Shown piece after piece: positions 12,347 through 23,569 of a DNA stretch of 64,000 bases (its first letter is position 1; every line of letters starts with the position of its first letter). Below the pieces are notes generated by a model. That model was not told the DNA's origin and made no database searches. It worked only from the letters and a program-made list of their open reading frames with translations. This DNA comes from Aquipluma nitroreducens (GTDB taxonomy: Bacteria > Bacteroidota > Bacteroidia > Bacteroidales > Prolixibacteraceae), in the NCBI RefSeq assembly GCF_009689585.1, contig NZ_AP018694.1, positions 2,061,001 through 2,125,000 of the forward strand, written 5' to 3'. A program made the position numbers and the translations under genes.

Positions 12347-13261
12347 TCAACCCACCATCAACAATTCAATTCCACGTTTCTTCGACCACTGATCGAGAAC
12401 ATCCTGCGATTCGGCAAAAGCCAGTAAATAACCACCACCGCCCGACCCCAGCAATTTGATGTACACTTTCTCGCAGTGTGCGAAGGAAATTACCCGATGA
12501 AAACCAGCGGGAATCATCTCGTGAAAATGATAGACCTGAAACTTGACCAATTGCGCTAAGTAAGAGAAGAATTTCTCCATATCCCCACTAAGTAACGACT
12601 CAATACAGCCATTATTCGCCGGCATAAACTGCTGTTGGAAAGCCAGTTCAAATTCCGGCAAGTTAAAAAGATCGATAAAATGCTGAACCAAAGGGCCTGT
12701 TGCTCCGGTAGTTTTGGTATCGATTAAAGCCATTGCCAATCCGGATTTGCCCATGTCAAATTCAATCGGACAAATTTGCTTTTTCGAGTCGATTAAAATG
12801 GGTTTATTCAGAAACGAAATCAACGGATCAAGACCTGAGCTTTTCCCATGAAAATAGCTTTCAAGTATCGAAAAATCAGCTTTTAAGATTTCAGGAGCGA
12901 GTTCCTCTTTCGGAACAGAATTTACTGCATAACGGCTAAAAAGTGCCGCCACCAATGCTCCTGAGCTGCCAAGTCCATATTGCTGTGGAATGTTTGAATG
13001 AAAGAACAGTCCCTGATCAAGATCACTTTCAAACCTGTCCAGATCGAACGGATAATTCAACGGATGAGCAGTATCTAACGATTTCAGATACTCGTAAAAT
13101 TTCCTGATTTCAGTAACGCTTTCCAAATGAGTCTGATCCAAGTCAAAATCCAGATAACCTGAAAACTTTGGAAACGGAACTGACAGAGCCATCGCATCGT
13201 AAATCAGTCCGTATTCGCCAAACAGAAGAAATTTTGAGTTAAATGCAGTTCCAAATTCCAT
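12347..13261 (-). CDS. mvk: Mevalonate kinase
   Basis: A 304-residue GHMP-superfamily kinase that phosphorylates mevalonate to 5-phosphomevalonate. Motif 1 is near the N-terminus (KFLLFGEYGLIYDAMAL), motif 2 is the phosphate-binding loop PQQYGLGSSGALVAA (93-105), the catalytic Asp is in HGKSSGLDPLIS (D145), and motif 3 is KLLGSGGGGYLLAF near the C-terminus. The HGKxSGxD motif is typical of mevalonate kinases. It is the last gene of the minus-strand run fni-hmgR-GYDIA-mvaD-mvk, separated from mvaD by a 78-base spacer holding an inverted repeat. It is the only clear mevalonate kinase here; the neighbouring GYDIA kinase presumably does the second phosphorylation. Confidence 0.9.
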   Translation of the reverse strand: MEFGTAFNSKFLLFGEYGLIYDAMALSVPFPKFSGYLDFDLDQTHLESVTEIRKFYEYLKSLDTAHPLNYPFDLDRFESDLDQGLFFHSNIPQQYGLGSSGALVAALFSRYAVNSVPKEELAPEILKADFSILESYFHGKSSGLDPLISFLNKPILIDSKKQICPIEFDMGKSGLAMALIDTKTTGATGPLVQHFIDLFNLPEFELAFQQQFMPANNGCIESLLSGDMEKFFSYLAQLVKFQVYHFHEMIPAGFHRVISFAHCEKVYIKLLGSGGGGYLLAFAESQDVLDQWSKKRGIELLMVG

Positions 13262-13287
13262 ATTTCATATTTTGTTGCGGGTTACGA

Positions 13288-13341
13288 GATACGCGTTACG
13301 GGTTTTTCCCAACTCGTAACACGAAACCCGTAACTCGTATC
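13288..13341. repeat. Inverted repeat between mvaD and mevalonate kinase genes
   Basis: The arms 13288-13305 and 13324-13341 match at 17 of 18 positions around an 18-base loop, and the loop itself repeats the ACTCGTAACACG theme. The right arm overlaps the mvaD stop codon. Palindromic intergenic repeats rich in GTTACGGGTT/CTCGTAAC are common in Bacteroidota; no T tract makes it a clear terminator. Confidence 0.55.
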
Positions 13342-14389
13342 AGTTATTTAATCTTTCCGGTCTTGTGCCAATCCGGTCATCAATCCACTTTCCGTTCTCG
13401 CAGAAAGCCAACAATTCGCTTTCAATGAAAGCCTTCACCTCTGGCTCATTCTCCTGAAAATAAAGTAAATGAATGTTTGGCCCGGCATCGATGGTAAAAC
13501 AAACCGGGATCTGCGATTTTTCGCGAAAGCGCCGAATCCTGTTGATCAGTTCCAGACTGTTTGGTTTTAGCAACAAAAACGACGGGTTTGAAGTCATCAT
13601 CATCGCATGCAAACTCAGCGCCTCGTTTTCAACCACGGCAATGAATTTTTCCAGATCGCCGGTGAGCAAAGCCAGATAAAGTTCATTGATGTTTTGGTGC
13701 GCCTGTGCAATGCGCGAACGCTGATAGTGGTGGTCGTCCATCAACCGGTGGCCAACCGAACTGGAAACTTCCTTCGTTCCCGAATCAACCATCAGGATGG
13801 CATCCCGAAGACCTGAAAATACCGGATGAACGCCATCCAATAACGGGATTGCATGGTAGTCGCTGCTTGACTCAAACAATTGAGTTTCTCCCCATATCGA
13901 AAAGCCCGGATACACCGAGCGGCAAGCGCTTCCGCTACCCATGCGCGCCAGTTCCGAAGCCTTTTGCCAAAACTCAAAACTGTCCGTTTCCCTTCCTGAA
14001 TGCATAAAATCCAACTCGGTTAAACACAAAGCCATCGCCCCAAACGATGAAGCCGACGAAGCAATTCCGGCCGAATGCGGAAAACTATTGTGACTGTGAA
14101 TCCTAAAATTGTATTTATTTATCCACGTAAACTGACTGGAAACGTGATTTAGGTAGTTTTCAATACGTTCGCCAAACGGGCTTTCCACTCCTTCAAAATA
14201 GTACGCCACCTTTTTGTCTCCATCTTTATGCAATTCCACCGATGTTTCGGTAAAAGCATTGCGAAGCACAAAACTCAGCGACGGGTTCATCGGTTTCTGG
14301 AAATCGCGTTTGCCCCAGTATTTCACCAAAGCAATATTCGACGGGCATCGCCACCCACTCCGATGAATATGTTTTGTATTTCCTGTCAT
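13340..14389 (-). CDS. mvaD: Diphosphomevalonate decarboxylase
   Basis: A 349-residue GHMP-fold enzyme that converts 5-diphosphomevalonate with ATP to isopentenyl diphosphate, CO2 and phosphate. Diagnostic features are the N-terminal PSNIALVKYWGKRD (residues 17-29), the phosphate loop PHSAGIASSASSFGAMA (104-120), the GSGSACRSVYPGF motif (151-163) and a C-terminal FTIDAGPNIHLLY segment with the catalytic Asp. All of these are characteristic of this enzyme and separate it from mevalonate kinase. Its ATG overlaps the stop of the upstream GYDIA kinase (ATGA), which indicates translational coupling. The length is typical (about 330-400). Confidence 0.95.
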   Translation of the reverse strand: MTGNTKHIHRSGWRCPSNIALVKYWGKRDFQKPMNPSLSFVLRNAFTETSVELHKDGDKKVAYYFEGVESPFGERIENYLNHVSSQFTWINKYNFRIHSHNSFPHSAGIASSASSFGAMALCLTELDFMHSGRETDSFEFWQKASELARMGSGSACRSVYPGFSIWGETQLFESSSDYHAIPLLDGVHPVFSGLRDAILMVDSGTKEVSSSVGHRLMDDHHYQRSRIAQAHQNINELYLALLTGDLEKFIAVVENEALSLHAMMMTSNPSFLLLKPNSLELINRIRRFREKSQIPVCFTIDAGPNIHLLYFQENEPEVKAFIESELLAFCENGKWIDDRIGTRPERLNN

Positions 14390-15336
14390 CTTTTCAAAAT
14401 CAAATCACCCCATTTAAACACTGTCTTCAATCCTTTGTTTTCAAAGTATTGTCTTACCCCTGAAAAAGGCAAAGAGGTTGAAGCCAGAAAAAAATCACCA
14501 CCCCAAGCCCCGAGCGATTTAATTTCACCTTTAAAATCAGCGAAGAACTCGGGTTTAATTGGTAATCGCCCTGTTACATCGCTAATTAGCTTTTCGTGTT
14601 GCCGAATCAAAAGGTTAAATTCATCCTGATCATCGCACCGGGAAAATTCACCTGCCAATGCCGATCCTTCTTCAATCTGCTGAGCCGAAACTTTTCTCTC
14701 CTTTAAGAAATCACTGACCGCTGTTGCCGTTTTCTTCTTTATTCCGGAATACACCAGAAACAATTGATCAGAAAACGGATAATTCAACGAAATAGTCTCA
14801 ACCGGTTTACTGCGCGTGTAAAAAATCGGTCCGTCAGCTGTGGCGCAGGCAATATCGAAACCTGAACCTTTAAAAACCAAGTCGTTCAAGACAAAAGGGT
14901 CAACTCCCGTCCATTGCGAAAGCAAACTAATCAGCGTGCTGCTGCTGCCAAAACCCCACTCAGGATTAGATTCCAGTATGGTTTCGAAATTTGTTCCAGA
15001 TTTTGGTGCAAATTCAGGATTCAGGCTTTTTATCGTTTTAAAAATCTGGCTGAGCGATTCGGCCTTCTCCGGATGACTCGTACTTATAACCGAAAAATCA
15101 TTTGGGTTCAATTCGCATGAAAACCAAGCCCTTCCATCGTAAAGAGCCAGCCATACAAGAGATTTAGGCGTATTCGTTTCAGAAACAGTCAACTGCTGAC
15201 CAACGTTCAATGGTAGCGCAATTGCCTTCGCCCCGTGAAGAACCAAATATTCACCGGTTAAAAGCAATTTGCCATTGGCGTGATATGTAGAAAGAATAGA
15301 CAATAGATACCAGATTTTAGAACAAAGATTGGGCAC
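14386..15336 (-). CDS. GYDIA-family GHMP kinase, probable phosphomevalonate kinase
   Basis: A GHMP kinase of about 305-316 residues. The N-terminal motif HANGKLLLTGEYLVLHGAKA, the phosphate loop PEWGFGSSSTLISLL and SGFDIACA (the family's name motif GYDIA, here GFDIA) are all clear. Bacteroidota with a mevalonate pathway often lack a classical phosphomevalonate kinase and keep this family in the cluster, so the second phosphorylation is the likely role (inference from context). The longest frame starts with GTG at 15336, but that codon sits inside an inverted repeat (15334-15374). A TTG at 15303, twelve codons before HANGK, fits the family N-terminus better. The stop overlaps the mvaD start by four bases. 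Confidence 0.85.
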   Translation of the reverse strand: MPNLCSKIWYLLSILSTYHANGKLLLTGEYLVLHGAKAIALPLNVGQQLTVSETNTPKSLVWLALYDGRAWFSCELNPNDFSVISTSHPEKAESLSQIFKTIKSLNPEFAPKSGTNFETILESNPEWGFGSSSTLISLLSQWTGVDPFVLNDLVFKGSGFDIACATADGPIFYTRSKPVETISLNYPFSDQLFLVYSGIKKKTATAVSDFLKERKVSAQQIEEGSALAGEFSRCDDQDEFNLLIRQHEKLISDVTGRLPIKPEFFADFKGEIKSLGAWGGDFFLASTSLPFSGVRQYFENKGLKTVFKWGDLILKR

Positions 15337-15374
15337 GAAGGCACAAAGAAATATTTCAACTTTGTGCCTTCGTG
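15334..15374. repeat. Perfect 15-base inverted repeat between hmgR and GYDIA
   Basis: The arms 15334-15348 and 15360-15374 (CACGAAGGCACAAAG and its complement) flank an 11-base loop. The sequence resembles GCACGAAGGCACAAAG-type intergenic repeats found in many Bacteroidota. It overlaps the GTG proposed as the GYDIA start, which argues against that start. Confidence 0.65.
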
Positions 15375-15380
15375 GCTGAA

Positions 15381-16691
15381 TTACTTTTGCAAGTAAGCTT
15401 CAACTGCCGAAAACGACACAGTTTTATCCTGAAAATAGAGTTGTATTTCAGCCCGACTTTCTTCAGGAATATTTAGTTGGTTCATGATATTACTCAAATG
15501 CATTTTCATGTGGCCTTGCTGAATTCCAACTGAAACCAGCGCTTTGACTGCACCAAAGTTGGATGCTAACCCGGCTACAGCCAGATACATCATTAATTCC
15601 GAAGCAGAAGGGTTATCCAAAATCTGCATCGCGAGTTTTGCCAGCGGATGAACCGCAGTTACACCACCAACCACGCCAACAGCCAAAGCCAGTTCAATGC
15701 TAAAGCGGAATTTTCCATCCTGAATTTGCACATCGGTTAACCCTGAATAATTACCATTTCTTGCAGCAAAAGCATGGCCACAAGCCTCAATGGCACGAAA
15801 ATCGTTTCCGGTTGCTACCGTAAGCGCATCGATACCGTTGAAAATCCCTTTGTTGTGGGTTACAGCCCGCGAAACATCGAACTGTGAAATTCGAATCGCC
15901 TGCTCAAACTTCCGGGCGAACTGATGGCATTCCACTTCTGTTTTTCCATCGAGCAAATCAGCAACCGAACATTCTACCCAAGCTCGCACCCGACTTTCAG
16001 GCGTATAGTTCGATAAAATTGCCATGATGATTTCGCATTCGCGTTGGCTGGTCGATACCTTTTCGCTGGTCAGAAAATAATCCTGAAGGCTTTTGCCAAA
16101 CTGCTCCAGACACGAGTTGATGAAGTTTGCTCCCATGGCATCACAGGTTTCAAAACCAGCATCCAACTGATAATAATTCGGCAAAATATGTGGCAACAAT
16201 TTCAGTTCAATCCCGGTAATTCCACCGCCGCGCTCTTCCATCTTTGTCGTCAGGAAAGCACTTTCGGTCAGTAATTTTGATCGGATTTCAGGAAAAAGTG
16301 ATTGTAAATACTCCGGATTTCCATTCCATGTAAAATGAACCTGCCCTTTTTTTTCAGTACCCAAAACTTCAGCATGAAAACCTCCGCGCTTTGCCCAAAA
16401 GCCAGCTGCATTTGCCAAAGCAGCAACCACCGAACTTTCTTCGGAAACCAAAGGGAAAAACAGGTTTTTGCCATTCACCACAAAGTTTGGGACAACGGAA
16501 AACGGAAAAGGAAAACAGGAAATGGGATTCTCACTGAGCTCGTCAATAACTTTTTGAACCGATTGATCAGAAACTTCACAGGACTTTAACCAGTGCTGAA
16601 AATCTGAATCAAAGCCGTATTTCTGAATCAGCGCATCAATGCGCTCTTGTTTATTGTACTTCGAAAACCCTTGTATGATGGAGTTATCCAT
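15381..16691 (-). CDS. Class II hydroxymethylglutaryl-CoA reductase
   Basis: A 436-residue soluble enzyme that interconverts HMG-CoA and mevalonate with NAD(P)H. It is class II, with no membrane anchor. The segment ENPISCFPFPFSVVPNF (54-70), LVSEESSVVAALANAA (81-96, catalytic Glu about 85), the lysine motif THNKGIFNGIDALTVATGNDFRA and the C-terminal GHMKMHLSNI histidine region are all present. Class II enzymes work in the biosynthetic direction when clustered with mevalonate genes, as here, and in the degradative direction in Pseudomonas mevalonii. The start overlaps the end of fni by eight bases, so the two are coupled. HMG-CoA synthase is not in the window. Confidence 0.93.
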   Translation of the reverse strand: MDNSIIQGFSKYNKQERIDALIQKYGFDSDFQHWLKSCEVSDQSVQKVIDELSENPISCFPFPFSVVPNFVVNGKNLFFPLVSEESSVVAALANAAGFWAKRGGFHAEVLGTEKKGQVHFTWNGNPEYLQSLFPEIRSKLLTESAFLTTKMEERGGGITGIELKLLPHILPNYYQLDAGFETCDAMGANFINSCLEQFGKSLQDYFLTSEKVSTSQRECEIIMAILSNYTPESRVRAWVECSVADLLDGKTEVECHQFARKFEQAIRISQFDVSRAVTHNKGIFNGIDALTVATGNDFRAIEACGHAFAARNGNYSGLTDVQIQDGKFRFSIELALAVGVVGGVTAVHPLAKLAMQILDNPSASELMMYLAVAGLASNFGAVKALVSVGIQQGHMKMHLSNIMNQLNIPEESRAEIQLYFQDKTVSFSAVEAYLQK

Positions 16692-17691
16692 GATAATCGG
16701 GATTAATTTTCAAATATGCTTTCGCCAGGCTCAGTACTTGAATTTGATTTTGGAGAAAGTTTTGGAGCGATTCGTAATTTTCTGATGCGTGTTTTAAAAC
16801 GGCAGATGCCATGCCAAACACGGCTGGAAGCTGGCTTTTGGAAGTGAGGTAATAGCCATCCAAAGCATTTTGGATACCTCCGGAAATAATCAATTGCCGG
16901 CAAGCTGGATTTGGATTTTCCTTCAGGATTTGGTTGACCGAATCGACCATTTGGCTCGCCGACTGACCCACAAATGCAAACGGCAAGCTGGCGTCCAGCT
17001 TTTGCTGATCGTCGCGCAACATTTCCAGTTTTGAAAAATTGGTTCCTCCGTAAGCGCCAAATTCAATGGCTTCAATCGGCAAAGCAAGCAATTCGCGCAA
17101 GCTTTCAGGGCCAAAACCCTGCCCAACTTCCTTCACGATTACCTTCAGCGAAATCTGATCCAACAGTTGCTGAATGGTCTGCAAAGGCGATTGTTTCAGG
17201 CGGTTTCCTTCGGGCTGGAACCATTCCTGTAGTGGATTGACATGAACAATCAACCCATCGGCCCGCAATTCGCCAACCAAATCAATAATGGCTTGAATAT
17301 TTTTGGAAGCAAGTAATTCTTCGACCTGCGCCACACCCAGATTGGCCCAAAATGGCTGGTCTCCGATTTCATTTCGAAAATCAAAGTCGGCCCAATCGTT
17401 TTTGTTGAACAGGATTTTGCGGCACGATCCCAATCCCATTCCCATTCCAAATTCGCGACAGGCACGGGCAATATTTCCGTTGATCGATCGGGCAACGCCC
17501 GTTCCGCCCGTCATGCTCGAAACCCAGATGGGAGCCTGCAACTTTTTCCCAAGAAAATCGATGCTCAAGTCCGTATTTTCAGGATGGGCAGCCAGTAAAG
17601 GTTCGTAATTGAAACGAAGATCCTGCTCCGAAAGTTTGGTCTGCGATTCGAGTGCCAGTTGAATGTGTTCGAGTTTGCGGTCGGAAGCCAT
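16684..17691 (-). CDS. fni: Type 2 isopentenyl-diphosphate delta-isomerase
   Basis: A 335-residue FMN-dependent TIM-barrel enzyme that interconverts IPP and DMAPP. The family features are RKLEHIQLAL at the N-terminus, PIWVSSMTGGTG (62-73, FMN and substrate loop), GMGMGLGSCRK, the VHVNPLQEWFQPEGNR segment with the conserved NPLQE, and the C-terminal VKEVGQGFG and GGIQNALDG phosphate-binding loops. It is unrelated to the type 1 (Nudix) isomerase. It heads the mevalonate gene run and overlaps hmgR by eight bases. The 119-base gap upstream contains a 14-base tandem repeat and no good TAnnTTTG box, so transcription may continue from the leucine genes. Confidence 0.95.
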   Translation of the reverse strand: MASDRKLEHIQLALESQTKLSEQDLRFNYEPLLAAHPENTDLSIDFLGKKLQAPIWVSSMTGGTGVARSINGNIARACREFGMGMGLGSCRKILFNKNDWADFDFRNEIGDQPFWANLGVAQVEELLASKNIQAIIDLVGELRADGLIVHVNPLQEWFQPEGNRLKQSPLQTIQQLLDQISLKVIVKEVGQGFGPESLRELLALPIEAIEFGAYGGTNFSKLEMLRDDQQKLDASLPFAFVGQSASQMVDSVNQILKENPNPACRQLIISGGIQNALDGYYLTSKSQLPAVFGMASAVLKHASENYESLQNFLQNQIQVLSLAKAYLKINPDYHG

Positions 17692-17696
17692 TAAAA

Positions 17697-17724
17697 ATGA
17701 TGAATTATGAATGATGAATTATGA
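17697..17724. repeat. 14-base tandem duplication
   Basis: ATGATGAATTATGA occurs twice back to back just upstream of the fni start. It is too short and too few in number to be a CRISPR array. AT-rich duplications of this kind are common in Bacteroidota intergenic DNA. Confidence 0.6.
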
Positions 17725-17810
17725 ATGCCAAAACTTTTTGCAAATTACGGAATTTCCGGTTAGCATTATAGCACTTTAGGCACTCCAAACTTTAGCTCAC
17801 TCCAATCTTT

Positions 17811-18965
17811 TTACTCTTTCAGGATATTCCGTGAAATCACCATACGCAGAATTTCGGACGTTCCTTCACCAATTTGCAGCAAGCGCTGGTCTCGGTAGAA
17901 ACGTTCGATTGGCCATTCGCGGTTCTTGAATAAACCGGCTCCGCCTAAAATTTGCACCGCTTCGTCGGCTATTTCACGGGCAATTTCGGCACAATACAGT
18001 TTGGCCATTGCCGCCTGTTGTCCAAACGAATGGCCGTTATCTTTCAGCCAACAGGCATTGTATAAACTATTTCGGGCATTCTCAATTTTCAAAGCCATAT
18101 CGGCCAATTTGAATGCAATGACCTGAAATTCGCTCAACGATTTGCCGAATTGTTTCCGCTGTTTGGCGTAAGCTTTGGCCATTTCGTAAGCTCCCTGTGC
18201 CAATCCAAGTCCAATGGCAGCGATCGACAAGCGACCTGAATCCAGCGTTTTCAGCATAATTTTAAAGCCATAGCCACGTTCGCCCAACTGATTTTTAACC
18301 GGTACACGGCAATTGTTAAAATAGAGCATACCGTTATCGGCAGCCCGCCACACCAACTTACTTTTCATGGTTTCGCGGATAAAACCTTCGCGCTCCTTTT
18401 CGATCAGGATAGCAGTGAATTCTTTACGACCATCATTTTCTCCGGTAAGAGCCAGAGTAGTCATGCCAGCCGAAATCTCAGAAGTTCCGTTGGTAATGTA
18501 CTTTTTCGATCCGTTCACAATAAACTCATTCCCTGAAATTTGAGCGGTGGTTTCAACACCTTGCGCATCCGAACCCGCGTTCTCTTCGGTCAAGCCAAAA
18601 GCCCAGAGTTTTTCGCCGGTACAAAATGCCGGAAGGAAGGTTTCCTTCTGTTCCTGCGTGCCAAACTCAACAATCGGCCCAACGCCAAGCGAGTTGTGCG
18701 CCGCAAGCGTTGCAGCCATCGAACTGTCGACACGAGCCATCTCTTCAATAGCAATGACATACGAAAGGTAATCACTTCCCAACCCGCCAAATTCCACTGG
18801 AGCAGTCATTCCCAACACGCCAATTTTGCCCATTTCGCGAACCAATTCGATCGGGAAAATCTCTTTTTCATCAAAATCATCGATCACCGGCTTGATAATC
18901 GCTTCTGCGAACAGCCTGACTTTCGCCCTGATCAGGTGATGTTTTTCTTGTAATAATGCATTCAT
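17811..18965 (-). CDS. Acyl-CoA dehydrogenase, probable isovaleryl/branched short-chain
   Basis: A 384-residue FAD enzyme of normal length. It has WAFGLTEENAGSDA (121-134, FAD/substrate loop), the KQFGKSLSEFQ segment, QILGGAGLF and the C-terminal IGEGTSEILRMVISRNI. By context, between methylcrotonyl-CoA carboxylase and mevalonate genes, it should oxidise isovaleryl-CoA to 3-methylcrotonyl-CoA. However, the catalytic Glu is at the butyryl/medium-chain position (E367, EGT), whereas classical isovaleryl-CoA dehydrogenases have Ala there and place the base on the LDxER helix. The equivalent residue here is G244 (LDSGRL). The substrate is therefore likely branched or short-chain but not certain. 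Confidence 0.88.
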   Translation of the reverse strand: MNALLQEKHHLIRAKVRLFAEAIIKPVIDDFDEKEIFPIELVREMGKIGVLGMTAPVEFGGLGSDYLSYVIAIEEMARVDSSMAATLAAHNSLGVGPIVEFGTQEQKETFLPAFCTGEKLWAFGLTEENAGSDAQGVETTAQISGNEFIVNGSKKYITNGTSEISAGMTTLALTGENDGRKEFTAILIEKEREGFIRETMKSKLVWRAADNGMLYFNNCRVPVKNQLGERGYGFKIMLKTLDSGRLSIAAIGLGLAQGAYEMAKAYAKQRKQFGKSLSEFQVIAFKLADMALKIENARNSLYNACWLKDNGHSFGQQAAMAKLYCAEIAREIADEAVQILGGAGLFKNREWPIERFYRDQRLLQIGEGTSEILRMVISRNILKE

Positions 18966-19048
18966 ATTTTAAGTTCCAAATTTCGGCTTCGACAGGCTCA
19001 GCCACCGTCTCTATTTTGAACTGAATACCTGTTATTTAATTTGTCTGA

Positions 19049-21049
19049 TCACTGAGACTGCAAACTAATCTCTTCCAACTCCACCAACAATTGCTTTTCA
19101 ACCACGGCATTTCCTTCCTTCACAAAAATCTTTTTCACTCGTGCATCTACCTGACAAAGCACATGAATTTCGGTCTTCATCGACTCCAAAGTCAGCAAAA
19201 TCTGTCCGGCGCGCACCACATCGCCCTCTCTTGTATTTAATTTCAATACCTTCCCAAACAAATCGGCGCAAATAAGGTTCTGAAAAATCTTTTGTTCAAG
19301 TTCATTTTTACGCATCGACAAAACCTGGTTTCGCAGCAAATTACTTCGTAATGTAAATGCAAATCCTCCGGAAATAATCTTCGTATGCTTCTCATCTTCC
19401 TGAAAACAAAAAGATTTAAGCTCATGATTGATCAGCAATTCAAGTAAATTTTCATTCATCAGAACCACTTTCGTTAAATATTCTTCCTGATTTATCCTGA
19501 AAATCTGACGCTCAGGATTAAAACTGATCGTACATTCGTATTTTTCATCATCCACATAAACCACAACCCAAGGCATCATTCGCCAGAAGCCGATCTGATT
19601 CCAAACCGACTTCACTGAGTTTTCATCCTGCTTAAAATGAAAAACAAGATAAGCGATAACTAATTTATGCTTGTTTAACTGCTGTCTTTTCTCCTGAAGC
19701 CCGGAATTAATCAAATCCAAATTTTCATCTACATATCGGGTGTAAATTTTGTTTTCCTGAACAACTACACTTTCAACCAATCCGGATAAAAACGAAAGGT
19801 TGGTGTGAACTCCTGAAATGTAGGTTTGCGATAGAACCTTGTTCATTTGGGCAATCGCTTTTGTACGGGTTTCGCCCCAAACAATCAATTTTGCAAGTAA
19901 AGAATCATAGTTTGATGAAATGATTATTCCTCTCTCAACAAAGGTTTCTTTCCTCAAATTTACCATCTCCGGAATTTGCCACAGTACCAGTTTTCCTGCT
20001 GAAGGATTAAAATTATTTCCGGCATCTTCGGCACACAAACGGGCCTCGATAGCATGACCGGAAATCTGAATATCTTCTTGTTTTAGTGACAGTTCATTTC
20101 CCAAAGCAACCTGTAATTGCAACGAAACCAAATCCGTATTGGTAATCATTTCGGTAACCGGATGCTCCACCTGAATGCGGGTATTCATTTCCAGAAAGTA
20201 GAATTTTCCACTTTCATCTAACAAAAATTCGATGGTTCCGGCGTTGCGGTAACTCATTGATCGGGCAATTTCTACTGCTGCCGAAGTCAGTTCTTCCCTT
20301 AGTTTTTCATCAACCGAAGGTGATGGCGCTTCTTCAATAATCTTCTGAAAGCGGCGCTGCACCGAACATTCGCGCTCAAAAAAGTGCAATACTTTTCCAT
20401 GGTTATCAGCCATCAGTTGCACTTCGATGTGCCGTGCACGCGGTAAATATTTTTCAACAAACAGCTCTCCATTTCCGAAGTAACTGTGGGCTTGTCGTTC
20501 GGCTTTTTCAAGAGCCGGAGGTAATTCTTCAACTGAATTGCAAATTACCATACCTTTTCCGCCTCCTCCCCCTGACGCTTTTACCATCACCGGAAAATCC
20601 ATTTCCGAAGTATATTTCAGAATCTCAGTTGTTGTTCCCCTGAACGATTTCAGGATCGGAAGTCCAAGCGATTCGACATAAGCGAGCGCACGGTTCTTTT
20701 CGCCCATCAGGCGAATATTTTCAGGAGTTGGGCCTATAAAAACTAATCCGGCATCAGCAACTTTTTGAGCAAACACAGCATTTTCAGACAAAAACCCATA
20801 GCCCGGATGAATGGCCTCAACTTTTAGGTCCAGGGCAGTCTGAATAATTTTATCCTGATTCAGGTAAGTTTCAGCAAGTGTCACTCCTGGAAGCAAAATC
20901 GCCTCATTGGCCAGCGAAACGTGCAAAGAATCTGCATCATCAGCCGCATAAACAGCCACCGAACGAATGCCGTTCTTTTGCGCCGCACGAATAATCCGGA
21001 CAGCAATTTCTCCTCGATTAGCTATGAGTATTTTTTCGAATTGCTTCAT
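19049..21049 (-). CDS. mccA: Methylcrotonyl-CoA carboxylase, biotin-carrying alpha subunit
   Basis: A 666-residue subunit that carboxylates its own biotin with ATP and bicarbonate and carries it to the beta subunit. The biotin carboxylase N-domain begins IANRGEIAVRIIRAA. The ATP-grasp domain includes KASGGGGGKGM, HFFERECSVQRRFQKIIEEAPSP read in two parts, and FYFLEMNTRIQVEHPVTE. A poorly conserved linker follows (about 450-590), then the biotinyl domain with LTLESMKTEIHV, biotin on K625. One polypeptide combining BC, a BT linker and BCCP is the layout of acyl-CoA carboxylase alpha subunits (MCC/PCC). Adjacent mccB-type beta and a methylglutaconyl-CoA hydratase point to MCC. Its start lies 25 bases after the hydratase stop. 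Confidence 0.92.
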   Translation of the reverse strand: MKQFEKILIANRGEIAVRIIRAAQKNGIRSVAVYAADDADSLHVSLANEAILLPGVTLAETYLNQDKIIQTALDLKVEAIHPGYGFLSENAVFAQKVADAGLVFIGPTPENIRLMGEKNRALAYVESLGLPILKSFRGTTTEILKYTSEMDFPVMVKASGGGGGKGMVICNSVEELPPALEKAERQAHSYFGNGELFVEKYLPRARHIEVQLMADNHGKVLHFFERECSVQRRFQKIIEEAPSPSVDEKLREELTSAAVEIARSMSYRNAGTIEFLLDESGKFYFLEMNTRIQVEHPVTEMITNTDLVSLQLQVALGNELSLKQEDIQISGHAIEARLCAEDAGNNFNPSAGKLVLWQIPEMVNLRKETFVERGIIISSNYDSLLAKLIVWGETRTKAIAQMNKVLSQTYISGVHTNLSFLSGLVESVVVQENKIYTRYVDENLDLINSGLQEKRQQLNKHKLVIAYLVFHFKQDENSVKSVWNQIGFWRMMPWVVVYVDDEKYECTISFNPERQIFRINQEEYLTKVVLMNENLLELLINHELKSFCFQEDEKHTKIISGGFAFTLRSNLLRNQVLSMRKNELEQKIFQNLICADLFGKVLKLNTREGDVVRAGQILLTLESMKTEIHVLCQVDARVKKIFVKEGNAVVEKQLLVELEEISLQSQ

Positions 21050-21074
21050 CCTTAAAACTGATTACTGAGACAAT

Positions 21075-21866
21075 CTACTTTCCCCATTCCGGTTTCCTTT
21101 TGTCAAAAAATGCATGAATTCCTTCCTGACCATCAGGAGATAAAAGAGCCTTGGCCAAAATTGTGGAAGTGGCTTTGGTATCAGTAACATCAATACTTCC
21201 GGAAACCACATCATTAATCAATTGTTTGGCCCTTTTCACTGCAGACGGTGATGCAGATTTAAACGAAGCAATTAATGCTGACAGTTCGCTTTCAAAGTTT
21301 TCTTCGCTATAGATTTCGTCAACCAGACCAATCCGGTGAGCTTCATTTACAACAAACAGGTTTCCCGTTAATATCCATTTCCGGAGATTTTGAACAGACA
21401 AACGGTTCGCAACAAACGGCAAAATCGTGGCGGGTAGAAGACCAAGTTTCACTTCGCTAAACATGAAACGGGTATTTGCTTCGGCCAAAACAAAATCGCA
21501 GGCTGCCATTAATCCTATTCCGCCTCCAAATACGTTTCCGCGAACTGCTGCGATGGTAATCTGAGGTAATTGAAAAAGTCGGAGCAGTAAATCGGCCAGA
21601 TGCTTGTATTGCTCAATACTTTGTTCAATCGAGTGTTCTTCCGAACTATAAAACCAATTCAGGTCAGCACCGGCACAAAACGAACGGCCATTTCCGGAGA
21701 GCACTACAAAAAGTACTTCATTCATTCCCGAGATCTCTTCCAAAGCCTGATCCAGCTCGTCAATCATTTCTAAAATCAGGGCATTGTGTCGTTCAGGACG
21801 ATTTAGATTAATCCCAATTACTTGTCCTTTATGCTGAATTTCGATATATCGATAGTCGTTTTTCAC
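21075..21866 (-). CDS. liuC: Probable methylglutaconyl-CoA hydratase
   Basis: A 263-residue crotonase-superfamily protein. It should hydrate 3-methylglutaconyl-CoA to HMG-CoA, the last step before the branch between HMG-CoA lyase and HMG-CoA reductase. Family motifs are GRSFCAGADLNWFY (CoA/oxyanion loop; CAGADLNW is typical of LiuC/AUH), GNVFGGGIGLMAACDF and FSEVKLGLLPATILPFV with the catalytic Glu. The last two segments closely resemble LiuC rather than general enoyl-CoA hydratases, so the assignment rests on both sequence and context. It lies between mccB and mccA on the same strand, and a REP-like hairpin separates it from mccB. Confidence 0.85.
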   Translation of the reverse strand: MKNDYRYIEIQHKGQVIGINLNRPERHNALILEMIDELDQALEEISGMNEVLFVVLSGNGRSFCAGADLNWFYSSEEHSIEQSIEQYKHLADLLLRLFQLPQITIAAVRGNVFGGGIGLMAACDFVLAEANTRFMFSEVKLGLLPATILPFVANRLSVQNLRKWILTGNLFVVNEAHRIGLVDEIYSEENFESELSALIASFKSASPSAVKRAKQLINDVVSGSIDVTDTKATSTILAKALLSPDGQEGIHAFFDKRKPEWGK

Positions 21867-21911
21867 CTTTTTATTTATTCGTATTTGTCCTTAAATCTTT
21901 TTTTAGCTATC

Positions 21912-21944
21912 ATGTCCGTCACATAAATGTGACGGCAAAGGATA
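21912..21944 (+). repeat. REP-like hairpin, copy 3
   Basis: ATGT, the stem CCGTCACAT/ATGTGACGG with a 2-base spacer (21916-21935), then CAAAGGATA. It sits in the gap between mccB and the hydratase gene, on the strand opposite to the genes, as a single unpaired copy. Confidence 0.75.
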
Positions 21945-22000
21945 ATGCTCCGAAATGTGATCTCAACTCGAAACACGCAACCCGGAATCCGGAACTCGCT

Positions 22001-23569
22001 TCACATCCTGAAAACCCCGTATCCCGGTTCTCCAAACGGACGATTAAGCGAAACTGATATAGCCATAGCCAAAACTTTTCGCGTATCGGCCGGATCGATA
22101 ATTCCATCATCCCACAAACGCGACGAACTATAATAGGCTGAACTTTCTTCGTTAAACTGTTCAAGTAAATTATCTCCAGATCCGTTACTACCGATGCTTT
22201 TCAGGACTCCTGAAGCCTGCTCGCCGCCCATCACAGAAATGCGCGAATGTGGCCACATAAACAAAAAATGTGGATCGAAAGCCCGACCAGCCATGGCGTA
22301 ATTTCCAGCGCCAAAAGAGCCGCCAATCACCACCGTAAATTTTGGAACTGCGGCATTGGCAACTGCATTGATCAGTTTTGCCCCATCGCGAGCAATGCCA
22401 CCATGTTCATATTTTTTACCAACGACAAAGCCGGTAATGTTTTGCAGAAAAAGCAACGGAATTTTACGCTGCACACACAACTGAATAAAATGAGCGCCTT
22501 TCAGCGAACTTTCTGAAGTCAGGAAACTGTTGTTGGCGATAATTCCGATTGGGAAACCCCATATTCGGGCAAATCCAGTTACCAGTGTTTTTCCGTAGTT
22601 CGCTTTAAATTCCTGAAACTCGCTTCCATCGACCAATCTGCTAATGATTGCATGTGTGTTGATTGGCTTTTTCAAATCTGCTGGTAGCAAACCATACAAT
22701 TCTTCAGAAGGATAAAGCGGTTCTTTTTCTTTTTGAATTTCTATCTTTTGTTTCTCCTGAACAGGTAATCCAGCCACAATATCGCGGCAAATTCGCAAAG
22801 CATCCAGATCATCTTCAGCCATGTGATCGGCCACACCCGAGATGGTAGTATGCACCTCGGCACCACCCAATTCTTCCGGTGTAACTTCTTCGCCAGTAGC
22901 AGCCAATACCAGTGGTGGCCCGCCAATAAAAATGGTTCCCTGGTTGCGCACCATGATGGTTTCGTCGCTCATCGCCGGAACGTAAGCGCCGCCAGCAGTA
23001 CATGAACCCATCACCACCGAAATCTGCGGAATTCCTTCGGCCGACATGCGTGCCTGATTGTAAAATACCCGGCCAAAATCGAACCGGTCTGGAAAAACAT
23101 GAGCCTGTTCAGGCAGATAAATTCCGCCCGAATCGACCAGATAAATGCAAATGAGTTTATTTTGACGGGCAATTTCCTGTGCCCGAACGTGTTTTTTGAT
23201 GGTTTCGCGGATGTAAGTTCCACCTTTTACAGTGGCGTCATTGGCAATAATCAGGCACTCGCGCCCCTTAACAATGCCGATTCCGCTAACAATTCCAGCC
23301 GATGGAAAAGCATTTTCGTATTGATTGTAGGCTGCAAACGATGAAAGTTCGAGAAACGGAGTATTCTGATCGACCAACAAATTGATGCGTTCGCGAGCTA
23401 GCAGTTTTCCCCGGGAGCGATGTTTTTCAACCGCGGCTTCGCCTCCATGCGAACTGACTAAAGCCAACTCATCACGAAAAATTTTCAGTATTTCCGAATA
23501 ATTCCTGAAATTCTCCTGAAATTCGGGAGAAGAAGTTCGTACATCGCTTTGTTTAATTTTTGTGGTCAT
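22001..23569 (-). CDS. mccB: Methylcrotonyl-CoA carboxylase, beta (carboxyltransferase) subunit
   Basis: A 522-residue crotonase-fold carboxyltransferase that moves CO2 from biotin to 3-methylcrotonyl-CoA, giving 3-methylglutaconyl-CoA. The N-half begins with [15 protein letters not shown]. The middle [20 protein letters not shown] and [19 protein letters not shown] are the strongest MCC-type signatures, followed by [37 protein letters not shown], and in the C-half [19 protein letters not shown]. Its length fits MCC beta (about 535). It is the first of the leucine-degradation genes in the direction of transcription, 39 bases after mtaB, so part of its expression may come from mtaB. Confidence 0.93.

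Follow-up and report, generated by a model that had tools for sequence, protein, structure and literature searches.

The genome of Aquipluma nitroreducens, a single contig of 5,712,279 bases (99.73% complete), contains a run of nine genes that we regard as likely to be a leucine-fed mevalonate operon, in which 3-hydroxy-3-methylglutaryl-CoA (HMG-CoA) derived from leucine or isovalerate would feed mevalonate. The run lies in the 64,000-nucleotide stretch analyzed here (contig positions 2061001-2125000, hereafter the window), on the minus strand from window position 23569 down to 12347. The gene order is mccB, a LiuC-like hydratase, mccA, acyl-CoA dehydrogenase, fni, class II HMG-CoA reductase (HMGR), a GYDIA-family kinase, mvaD and mevalonate kinase, with gaps of 134, 25, 83, 119, -8, 44, -4 and 78 nt between successive genes. 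Each of the nine reading frames is intact. The single strand, the order and the overlaps or short spacers reported in a preliminary description of this DNA were confirmed. Neither HMG-CoA synthase nor HMG-CoA lyase was detected in the genome. Taken together, the arrangement is real and conserved and probably functional, a new combination of known chemistry.

The first four genes correspond to the set found together in leucine (liu) operons, namely both 3-methylcrotonyl-CoA carboxylase (MCC) subunits, methylglutaconyl-CoA hydratase and acyl-CoA dehydrogenase, with substrates that family and context suggest. The product of mccB (22001..23569, 522 aa), the MCC beta subunit, matched PF01039 at 478 bits. 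Its best solved chain was the MCC beta chain 3u9r (675 bits), followed by mitochondrial MCC beta (662 bits), AccD1 (661 bits) and 9tps, which is named as a propionyl-CoA carboxylase beta chain (also 661 bits); geranyl-CoA carboxylase reached 447 bits and the remaining propionyl-CoA carboxylase beta chains at most 265. The LiuC-like methylglutaconyl-CoA hydratase (21075..21866, 263 aa; ECH_1, 179 bits) had a crotonase family as its top NCBIfam match (225 bits) and gamma-carboxygeranoyl-CoA hydratase as the second (201 bits), and has a SEVKLGL(I/L)PA stretch in common with its closest solved chains, 3i47 and 4kpk. MccA (19049..21049, 666 aa) comprises biotin carboxylase domains and a C-terminal biotin carrier domain (Biotin_lipoyl) with an ESMKTE motif, and its closest solved chain was MCC alpha. 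The acyl-CoA dehydrogenase (17811..18965, 384 aa; Acyl-CoA_dh domains) is of the short-chain type by family match. We propose from the operon context that it is an isovaleryl-CoA dehydrogenase, and we retain isovaleryl-CoA as its likely substrate because the same enzyme accompanies the mcc genes in relatives whose leucine genes are unlinked.

The second half of the run holds HMGR, mevalonate kinase, diphosphomevalonate decarboxylase and isopentenyl diphosphate (IPP) isomerase, several of them scoring below NCBIfam cut-offs with characteristic motifs kept. Fni, a type 2 IPP isomerase (16684..17691, 335 aa), scored 208 bits against TIGR02151 (cut-off 281) and retains MTGG, GSCR and GGTN stretches. 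The class II HMGR (15381..16691, 436 aa) scored 254 bits against PF00368, above the cut-off, and 248 bits against an NCBIfam 'degradative' model, below its cut-off of 260; its closest solved chain was 7n7s (415 bits), and EESSV, THNKGI, ATGND and GHMKMH are conserved. The GYDIA-family GHMP kinase (14386..15336, 316 aa), which we infer to be the phosphomevalonate kinase, exceeded the cut-off of NF040656 (298 bits against 225) and carries GFGSSS and GFDIA motifs. MvaD, the diphosphomevalonate decarboxylase (13340..14389, 349 aa; MVD-like_N and MDD_C domains), fell just below the TIGR01240 cut-off (169 bits against 171) with KYWGK, SGSACR and DAGPN motifs, and mevalonate kinase (12347..13261, 304 aa) scored 67 bits against TIGR00549, the best of its matches (cut-off 163), with GLGSSG and SGLDP motifs. 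The HMGR is closest, at 82-84% identity, to proteins of metagenome-assembled genomes mostly labeled Prolixibacteraceae, and is 62% identical to that of Sunxiuqinia and 59% to that of Tangfeifania diversioriginum.

As we read the run, isovaleryl-CoA would arise from leucine, once transaminated and oxidatively decarboxylated, or from isovalerate taken up by the cell, and the dehydrogenase would convert it to 3-methylcrotonyl-CoA. MccAB would carboxylate this to 3-methylglutaconyl-CoA, which the hydratase would turn into HMG-CoA. With no lyase to split it, HMG-CoA would be reduced to mevalonate by HMGR; mevalonate kinase, the GYDIA kinase and MvaD would then take mevalonate through phosphomevalonate and diphosphomevalonate to IPP, and Fni would supply dimethylallyl diphosphate. 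Flux would run towards IPP, and the nine genes may be read as one transcript. By established chemistry, MvaD removes the carboxylate that MccAB has added, and therefore the five-carbon skeleton of leucine would reach IPP intact.

The preliminary description had remarked on the absence of HMG-CoA synthase and lyase genes from the run, and this held for the genome as a whole. The HMG-CoA synthase N-terminal domain (PF01154) had no match in the entire genome. A census of the 3-ketoacyl-ACP synthase III (KAS III) superfamily with an archaeal HMG-CoA synthase model (E <= 0.1) returned two proteins, of 332 and 360 aa. Both contain HQAN and GNT/GNS stretches, which we take to be typical of decarboxylating KAS III, and the group of the 360-aa protein is also present in a genome of the same family that has no HMGR (G072). 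The lyase model gave four weak matches (best 48 bits, cut-off 246), which on scanning were other enzymes: a citramalate-synthase-like protein, 2-isopropylmalate synthase and pyruvate carboxylase subunit B (the latter two over their cut-offs), and a fragment closest to 4-hydroxy-2-oxovalerate aldolase. With a 2-isopropylmalate synthase match above the cut-off, leucine may be made by the cell itself.

We then looked for the joined layout in relatives, using 119 genomes of the same taxonomic order and the best 80 of at least 588 named candidate loci. HMGR was present in 33 of the 119 genomes, including two short matches (G075, G117) omitted from the tree described below, and stretches were fetched around 32 of these, the window's own being left out. 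Eight other genomes of the order and ten of the named loci have the layout, complete or partial, in line with the conserved synteny that the preliminary description had proposed to look for. Six loci of the order sample have the complete nine-gene series in this order (L053, L055, L056, L059, L060 and L064). G014 has the nine genes on two contigs (L116 and L054), mvaD and mevalonate kinase being separated by other frames. G043 looks alike, with its genes divided among L110 and L057. The other 24 genomes have HMGR by itself or together with some or all of fni, GYDIA kinase, mvaD and mevalonate kinase, and no mcc genes within the fetched sequence. All ten named loci carry at least acyl-CoA dehydrogenase-fni-HMGR; five have all nine genes (L133, L136, with mccA in two frames, L137, L172 and L174) and three are cut by contig ends (L134, L148, L155). 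In the two Ancylomarina loci (L147, L159), the dehydrogenase is the only gene of the leucine half that precedes fni-HMGR-GYDIA-mvaD-mevalonate kinase, and the mcc genes are not adjacent. Tangfeifania diversioriginum is among the carriers of the joined layout. Wherever a locus shows all nine genes, the hydratase lies between mccB and mccA.

Genomes of other families have the same gene order, with most of the proteins 33-65% identical, indicating that the layout is more than chance. The junction between the two halves is an estimated 1-257 nt in 17 other loci, and 1, 2, 2, 11 and 15 nt in L055, L053, L060, L137 and L054, respectively. Some loci end at contig borders, so that a few 'unlinked' labels (for example G045 and G013) are uncertain. 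In a tree of HMGR, the joined layout needs four changes, at least three of them forced by well-supported branches, with 18 of 28 inner branches open; a single origin was not retained, as the tree does not tell ancestral linkage with losses from repeated linkage.

Relatives with unlinked leucine genes provided a comparison. Among 30 stretches fetched around unlinked MccB, several of them cut by contig ends, the same dehydrogenase (57-62% identical) accompanied the mcc genes in 16, and 13 contained lyase-like genes (k4, k5), subunits of 3-oxoacid CoA-transferase (k8, k9) or acetoacetyl-CoA ligase (k10). These unlinked loci represent ordinary leucine breakdown to acetoacetate. Lyase-like genes were found at E <= 1e-30 in 35 of the 119 genomes (127-204 bits, none over the curated cut-off of 246). 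None of the eight linked genomes had one, compared with 30 of 41 with unlinked MccB (Fisher p 1.7e-4, relatedness ignored), or none of nine compared with 30 of 40 when G043 was counted as linked. Within the unlinked group the proportions were 15 of 21 for genomes with MccB and HMGR and 15 of 20 for those with MccB and no HMGR. The pairing of a lyase with the mcc genes, named in the preliminary description as a sign against a leucine-fed route, was encountered in relatives whose mcc genes are unlinked and not in linked ones. MccB itself occurred in 29 of 33 HMGR-bearing and 20 of 86 HMGR-less genomes (relatedness ignored); four of 53 matches (G053, G062, G084 and G104; 46-51% identity) had been dropped as paralogues and a partial match in G102 kept.

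Two further gene types were seen in unlinked stretches. In L106, L108 and L125 (genomes G031, G056 and G016, which have no lyase-like gene), a gene of one cluster encoding 600-622 aa lies between mccA and the dehydrogenase, and the L108 copy was identified on scanning as AtuA, of acyclic terpene utilization. In L097, L117, L119, L120, L121 and L122, a protein of 718-727 aa (k7) is encoded beside mccB, in the usual place of mccA; the one scanned, from L119, has HMGL-like, PYC_OADA and biotin domains, and k7 may be a transcarboxylase- or decarboxylase-type partner.

To see how special the missing synthase is, we extended the PF01154 search to other genomes. None of the 33 HMGR-bearing genomes of the order had a match; the only two in that sample, at 30 and 33 bits (cut-off 25), were in genomes without HMGR. 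Among the searched named genomes, none of the nine with a linked locus had the synthase, and overall 2 of 33 did (74-79 bits). A sample of 148 genomes from the phylum included 20 with HMGR and yielded eight matches, seven of them at 70-85 bits and all seven in genomes with HMGR; a recognizable synthase was thus present in 7 of the 20 HMGR genomes (5 of 6 in genus g124). The probe therefore works in this phylum, and the synthase tracks the pathway where it is present. Some other tests were set aside. MccB matched in all 20 HMGR genomes (E <= 1e-120), yet this was uninformative: apart from the A. nitroreducens genome and G259, all matches fell in a 45-51% identity band shared by 86 of the 128 HMGR-less genomes. 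A hidden synthase beside HMGR in relatives without mcc genes was rejected, the eight loci that share upstream genes having groEL, groES, secG and others there (labeled by eye). L205, L210 and L046, all HMGR loci, hold KAS III-like genes with HQAN and GNT/GNS stretches, which were read as KAS III rather than HMG-CoA synthase.

The missing synthase fits either a wider entry of leucine or a synthase that is not recognized. It is possible, but for now a tentative idea, that HMG-CoA derived from leucine or isovalerate is a general mevalonate entry, and in some lineages the sole one, in Bacteroidota without HMG-CoA synthase. The sharpest candidate for such an entry, and an obligate one, is G101 (2.4 Mb, 99% complete; L037, L109), which has HMGR, GYDIA kinase and MccB-hydratase-MccA, and in which no Dxr (1-deoxyxylulose-phosphate reductoisomerase), HMG-CoA synthase or lyase-like gene was detected. 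No dehydrogenase, fni, mvaD or mevalonate kinase was seen in G101 within the two stretches read, the search for them not extending to the remaining genome. The flavobacterial or Bacteroidetes mevalonate pathway has been described, in the available portions of two papers, as complete but for phosphomevalonate kinase (PMC4026382, PMC4148732).

Several observations weigh against a leucine-fed operon. A. nitroreducens encodes Dxr (a 395-aa open frame, 144 bits), the sole gene of the methylerythritol phosphate (MEP) pathway searched for, and the MEP route probably exists in this organism. With Dxr present, isoprenoids and IPP need not depend on leucine or on the mevalonate half, and leucine as the only isoprenoid source is ruled out as stated; the leucine-fed supply would be a second one, beside the MEP pathway. 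The dehydrogenase has Glu at the position of the short/medium-chain enzymes and Gly at that of the isovaleryl-CoA dehydrogenase base, positions that we presume to be those of the respective catalytic bases. Across 34 distinct sequences (33 relatives and the window), the Glu was found in 33, with the pattern absent in one, and the Gly in 31, with the pattern absent in three. Dehydrogenases of unlinked relatives have the same arrangement, and a base of the isovaleryl-CoA dehydrogenase type was found neither here nor in them. The view in the preliminary description that every step from isovaleryl-CoA onwards is encoded needs correction to the extent that the dehydrogenase is placed by operon context.

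The junction is 119 nt long here and 257 and 247 nt long in L133 and L134, the closest relatives, and these lengths leave room for a separate promoter. The 119 nt (17692..17810) contain a promoter-like match at 17731-17704, and a scan found no terminator-like hairpin on the operon strand within them; terminator-like sites outnumbered those in shuffled sequence and promoter-like sites did not, and neither is evidence of function. No HMG-CoA synthase was detected in many HMGR-bearing Bacteroidota that lack the linked operon, including the searched Flavobacterium (among them Flavobacterium kayseriense), Muricauda, Aquimarina, Saprospira grandis and Fluviicola. Since this absence is widespread, it does not alone prove a leucine route, nor does it mark the linked operon. 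A lyase-like gene is also lacking in 6 of the 21 unlinked genomes with MccB and HMGR and in 5 of the 20 with MccB and no HMGR. Only three independent pairs could be drawn on well-supported branches (on average 1.7 agree and none oppose), so that the lyase contrast does not reach significance when relatedness is taken into account. The preliminary proposal that leucine or isovalerate could feed isoprenoids is partly supported by these data.

Other explanations were weighed against these data. Acetyl-CoA could feed the mevalonate half through an HMG-CoA synthase too divergent to be recognized, with the leucine half a catabolic neighbor kept for other reasons. The undetected synthase of Flavobacterium kayseriense and the other Bacteroidota named above, which have no linked mcc genes, agrees with this, as does the description of the Bacteroidetes pathway as lacking only phosphomevalonate kinase (PMC4026382, PMC4148732, each available in part). 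An ordinary leucine operon should, however, end in HMG-CoA lyase, and none was detected; the model does find synthases at 70-85 bits in 7 of the 148 phylum genomes, and both KAS III-superfamily proteins of the genome have the HQAN and GNT/GNS stretches, with the 360-aa group present also in HMGR-less G072. We consider a divergent synthase improbable. It is likewise unlikely that the dehydrogenase acts on another short acyl-CoA and that 3-methylcrotonyl-CoA has a different source; in that case the remaining steps to IPP would still hold as proposed. Among solved chains, butyryl/short-chain or unspecified enzymes rank at the top (342 bits) and isovaleryl-CoA dehydrogenases reach at most 248 bits, which together with the Glu at the short-chain site would suit a different substrate. 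Against it, the 57-62% identical enzymes accompany mcc genes in 16 of 30 unlinked stretches, and the dehydrogenase stays with fni-HMGR in the Ancylomarina loci that lack adjacent mcc genes.

The run could also work backwards, with mevalonate from uptake or salvage oxidized by a degradative HMGR to HMG-CoA and then converted to isovaleryl-CoA, a starter for iso-branched fatty acids. The NCBIfam match of the reductase is to the 'degradative' family, and an alternative isovaleryl-CoA route is described in myxobacteria (PMC7321100, seen in part). The run nevertheless also contains MvaD, mevalonate kinase, the GYDIA kinase and Fni, which point to IPP, and no HMG-CoA synthase was detected that would supply HMG-CoA. 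The carboxylase step uses ATP, and the separate decarboxylase and reductase of the known reverse route are not among the nine genes. This direction appears very unlikely, and the leucine-fed operon remains the reading that we favor.

We know of no operon in the trypanosomatid leucine-to-sterol route, and of none of this kind in Halobacterium. In Halobacterium salinarum, which is archaeal, leucine reportedly enters isoprenoid lipid through mevalonate with an isovaleryl-CoA dehydrogenase, according to what is available of work attributed to Yamauchi in 2010. The myxobacterial alternative isovaleryl-CoA pathway uses HMG-CoA synthase to supply HMG-CoA, and this required enzyme had no match in the A. 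nitroreducens genome. The route proposed here, read from genes alone, resembles that of Leishmania and Trypanosoma, in which leucine-derived HMG-CoA enters the mevalonate pathway without an acetyl-CoA stage (PMC6832408, PMC5993337, both in the parts available). The trypanosomatids differ in being eukaryotic, in having HMG-CoA synthase in the scheme and, for T. brucei, in encoding a putative lyase (PMC5993337, same parts). In myxobacteria, leucine degradation likewise branches into isoprenoids, beside the alternative isovaleryl-CoA route; deuterated dimethylacrylic acid labeled a sesquiterpene-nucleoside and acetate did not do so significantly, and the available part of that paper mentions no joint operon (PMC7321100).

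Within bacteria, mccB, hydratase, mccA and acyl-CoA dehydrogenase occur together in the liu operon, as they do in several unlinked relatives. Unlike that operon, the run lacks HMG-CoA lyase, CoA-transferase and acetoacetyl-CoA ligase and goes on into mevalonate genes. Many Bacteroidota loci contain the fni-HMGR-GYDIA-mvaD-mevalonate kinase run, complete or partial, with the same genes in the same order, but here the leucine half precedes it in the same run. A literature search limited to open-licence papers found no bacterial operon joining both halves, in agreement with the preliminary description. What is new, then, is one bacterial run with both halves in a genome with neither synthase nor lyase detected; the chemistry was already known.

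If the reading is correct, a dedicated bacterial operon would carry the five-carbon skeleton of an amino acid directly to isoprenoids with no need of HMG-CoA synthase. This would explain how the lower mevalonate pathway can persist without its first committed enzyme, and it would provide a redox-consuming sink for leucine. Published claims that phosphomevalonate kinase is all that the Bacteroidota pathway lacks would come into question, and the gene set could serve to make terpenoids from leucine or isovalerate. One carrier, Tangfeifania diversioriginum, is kept in a culture collection as DSM 27063, and the reading is directly testable there.

Some minor features were also recorded. Four loci labeled Bacteriovoracaceae or Halobacteriovoraceae (L161, L169, L198 and L203) contain the fni-HMGR-GYDIA-mvaD-mevalonate kinase run at about 50% HMGR identity, representing either gene transfer or mislabeled bins. 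In the window, the upstream neighbor of the run is an MtaB-like methylthiotransferase (labeled by eye) on the same strand, 39 nt away, and the downstream neighbor is a convergent gene. Inverted repeats at 13274-13341, in the gap between mvaD and mevalonate kinase, have arms of 18 and 15 nt that are 94% and 87% complementary. Another, at 15334-15374 in the gap between HMGR and the GYDIA kinase, includes a perfect 15-nt pair and covers the GTG start of the kinase. Because this GTG sits in an arm of the repeat, the true start may be further in; the NF040656 match begins at residue 17.

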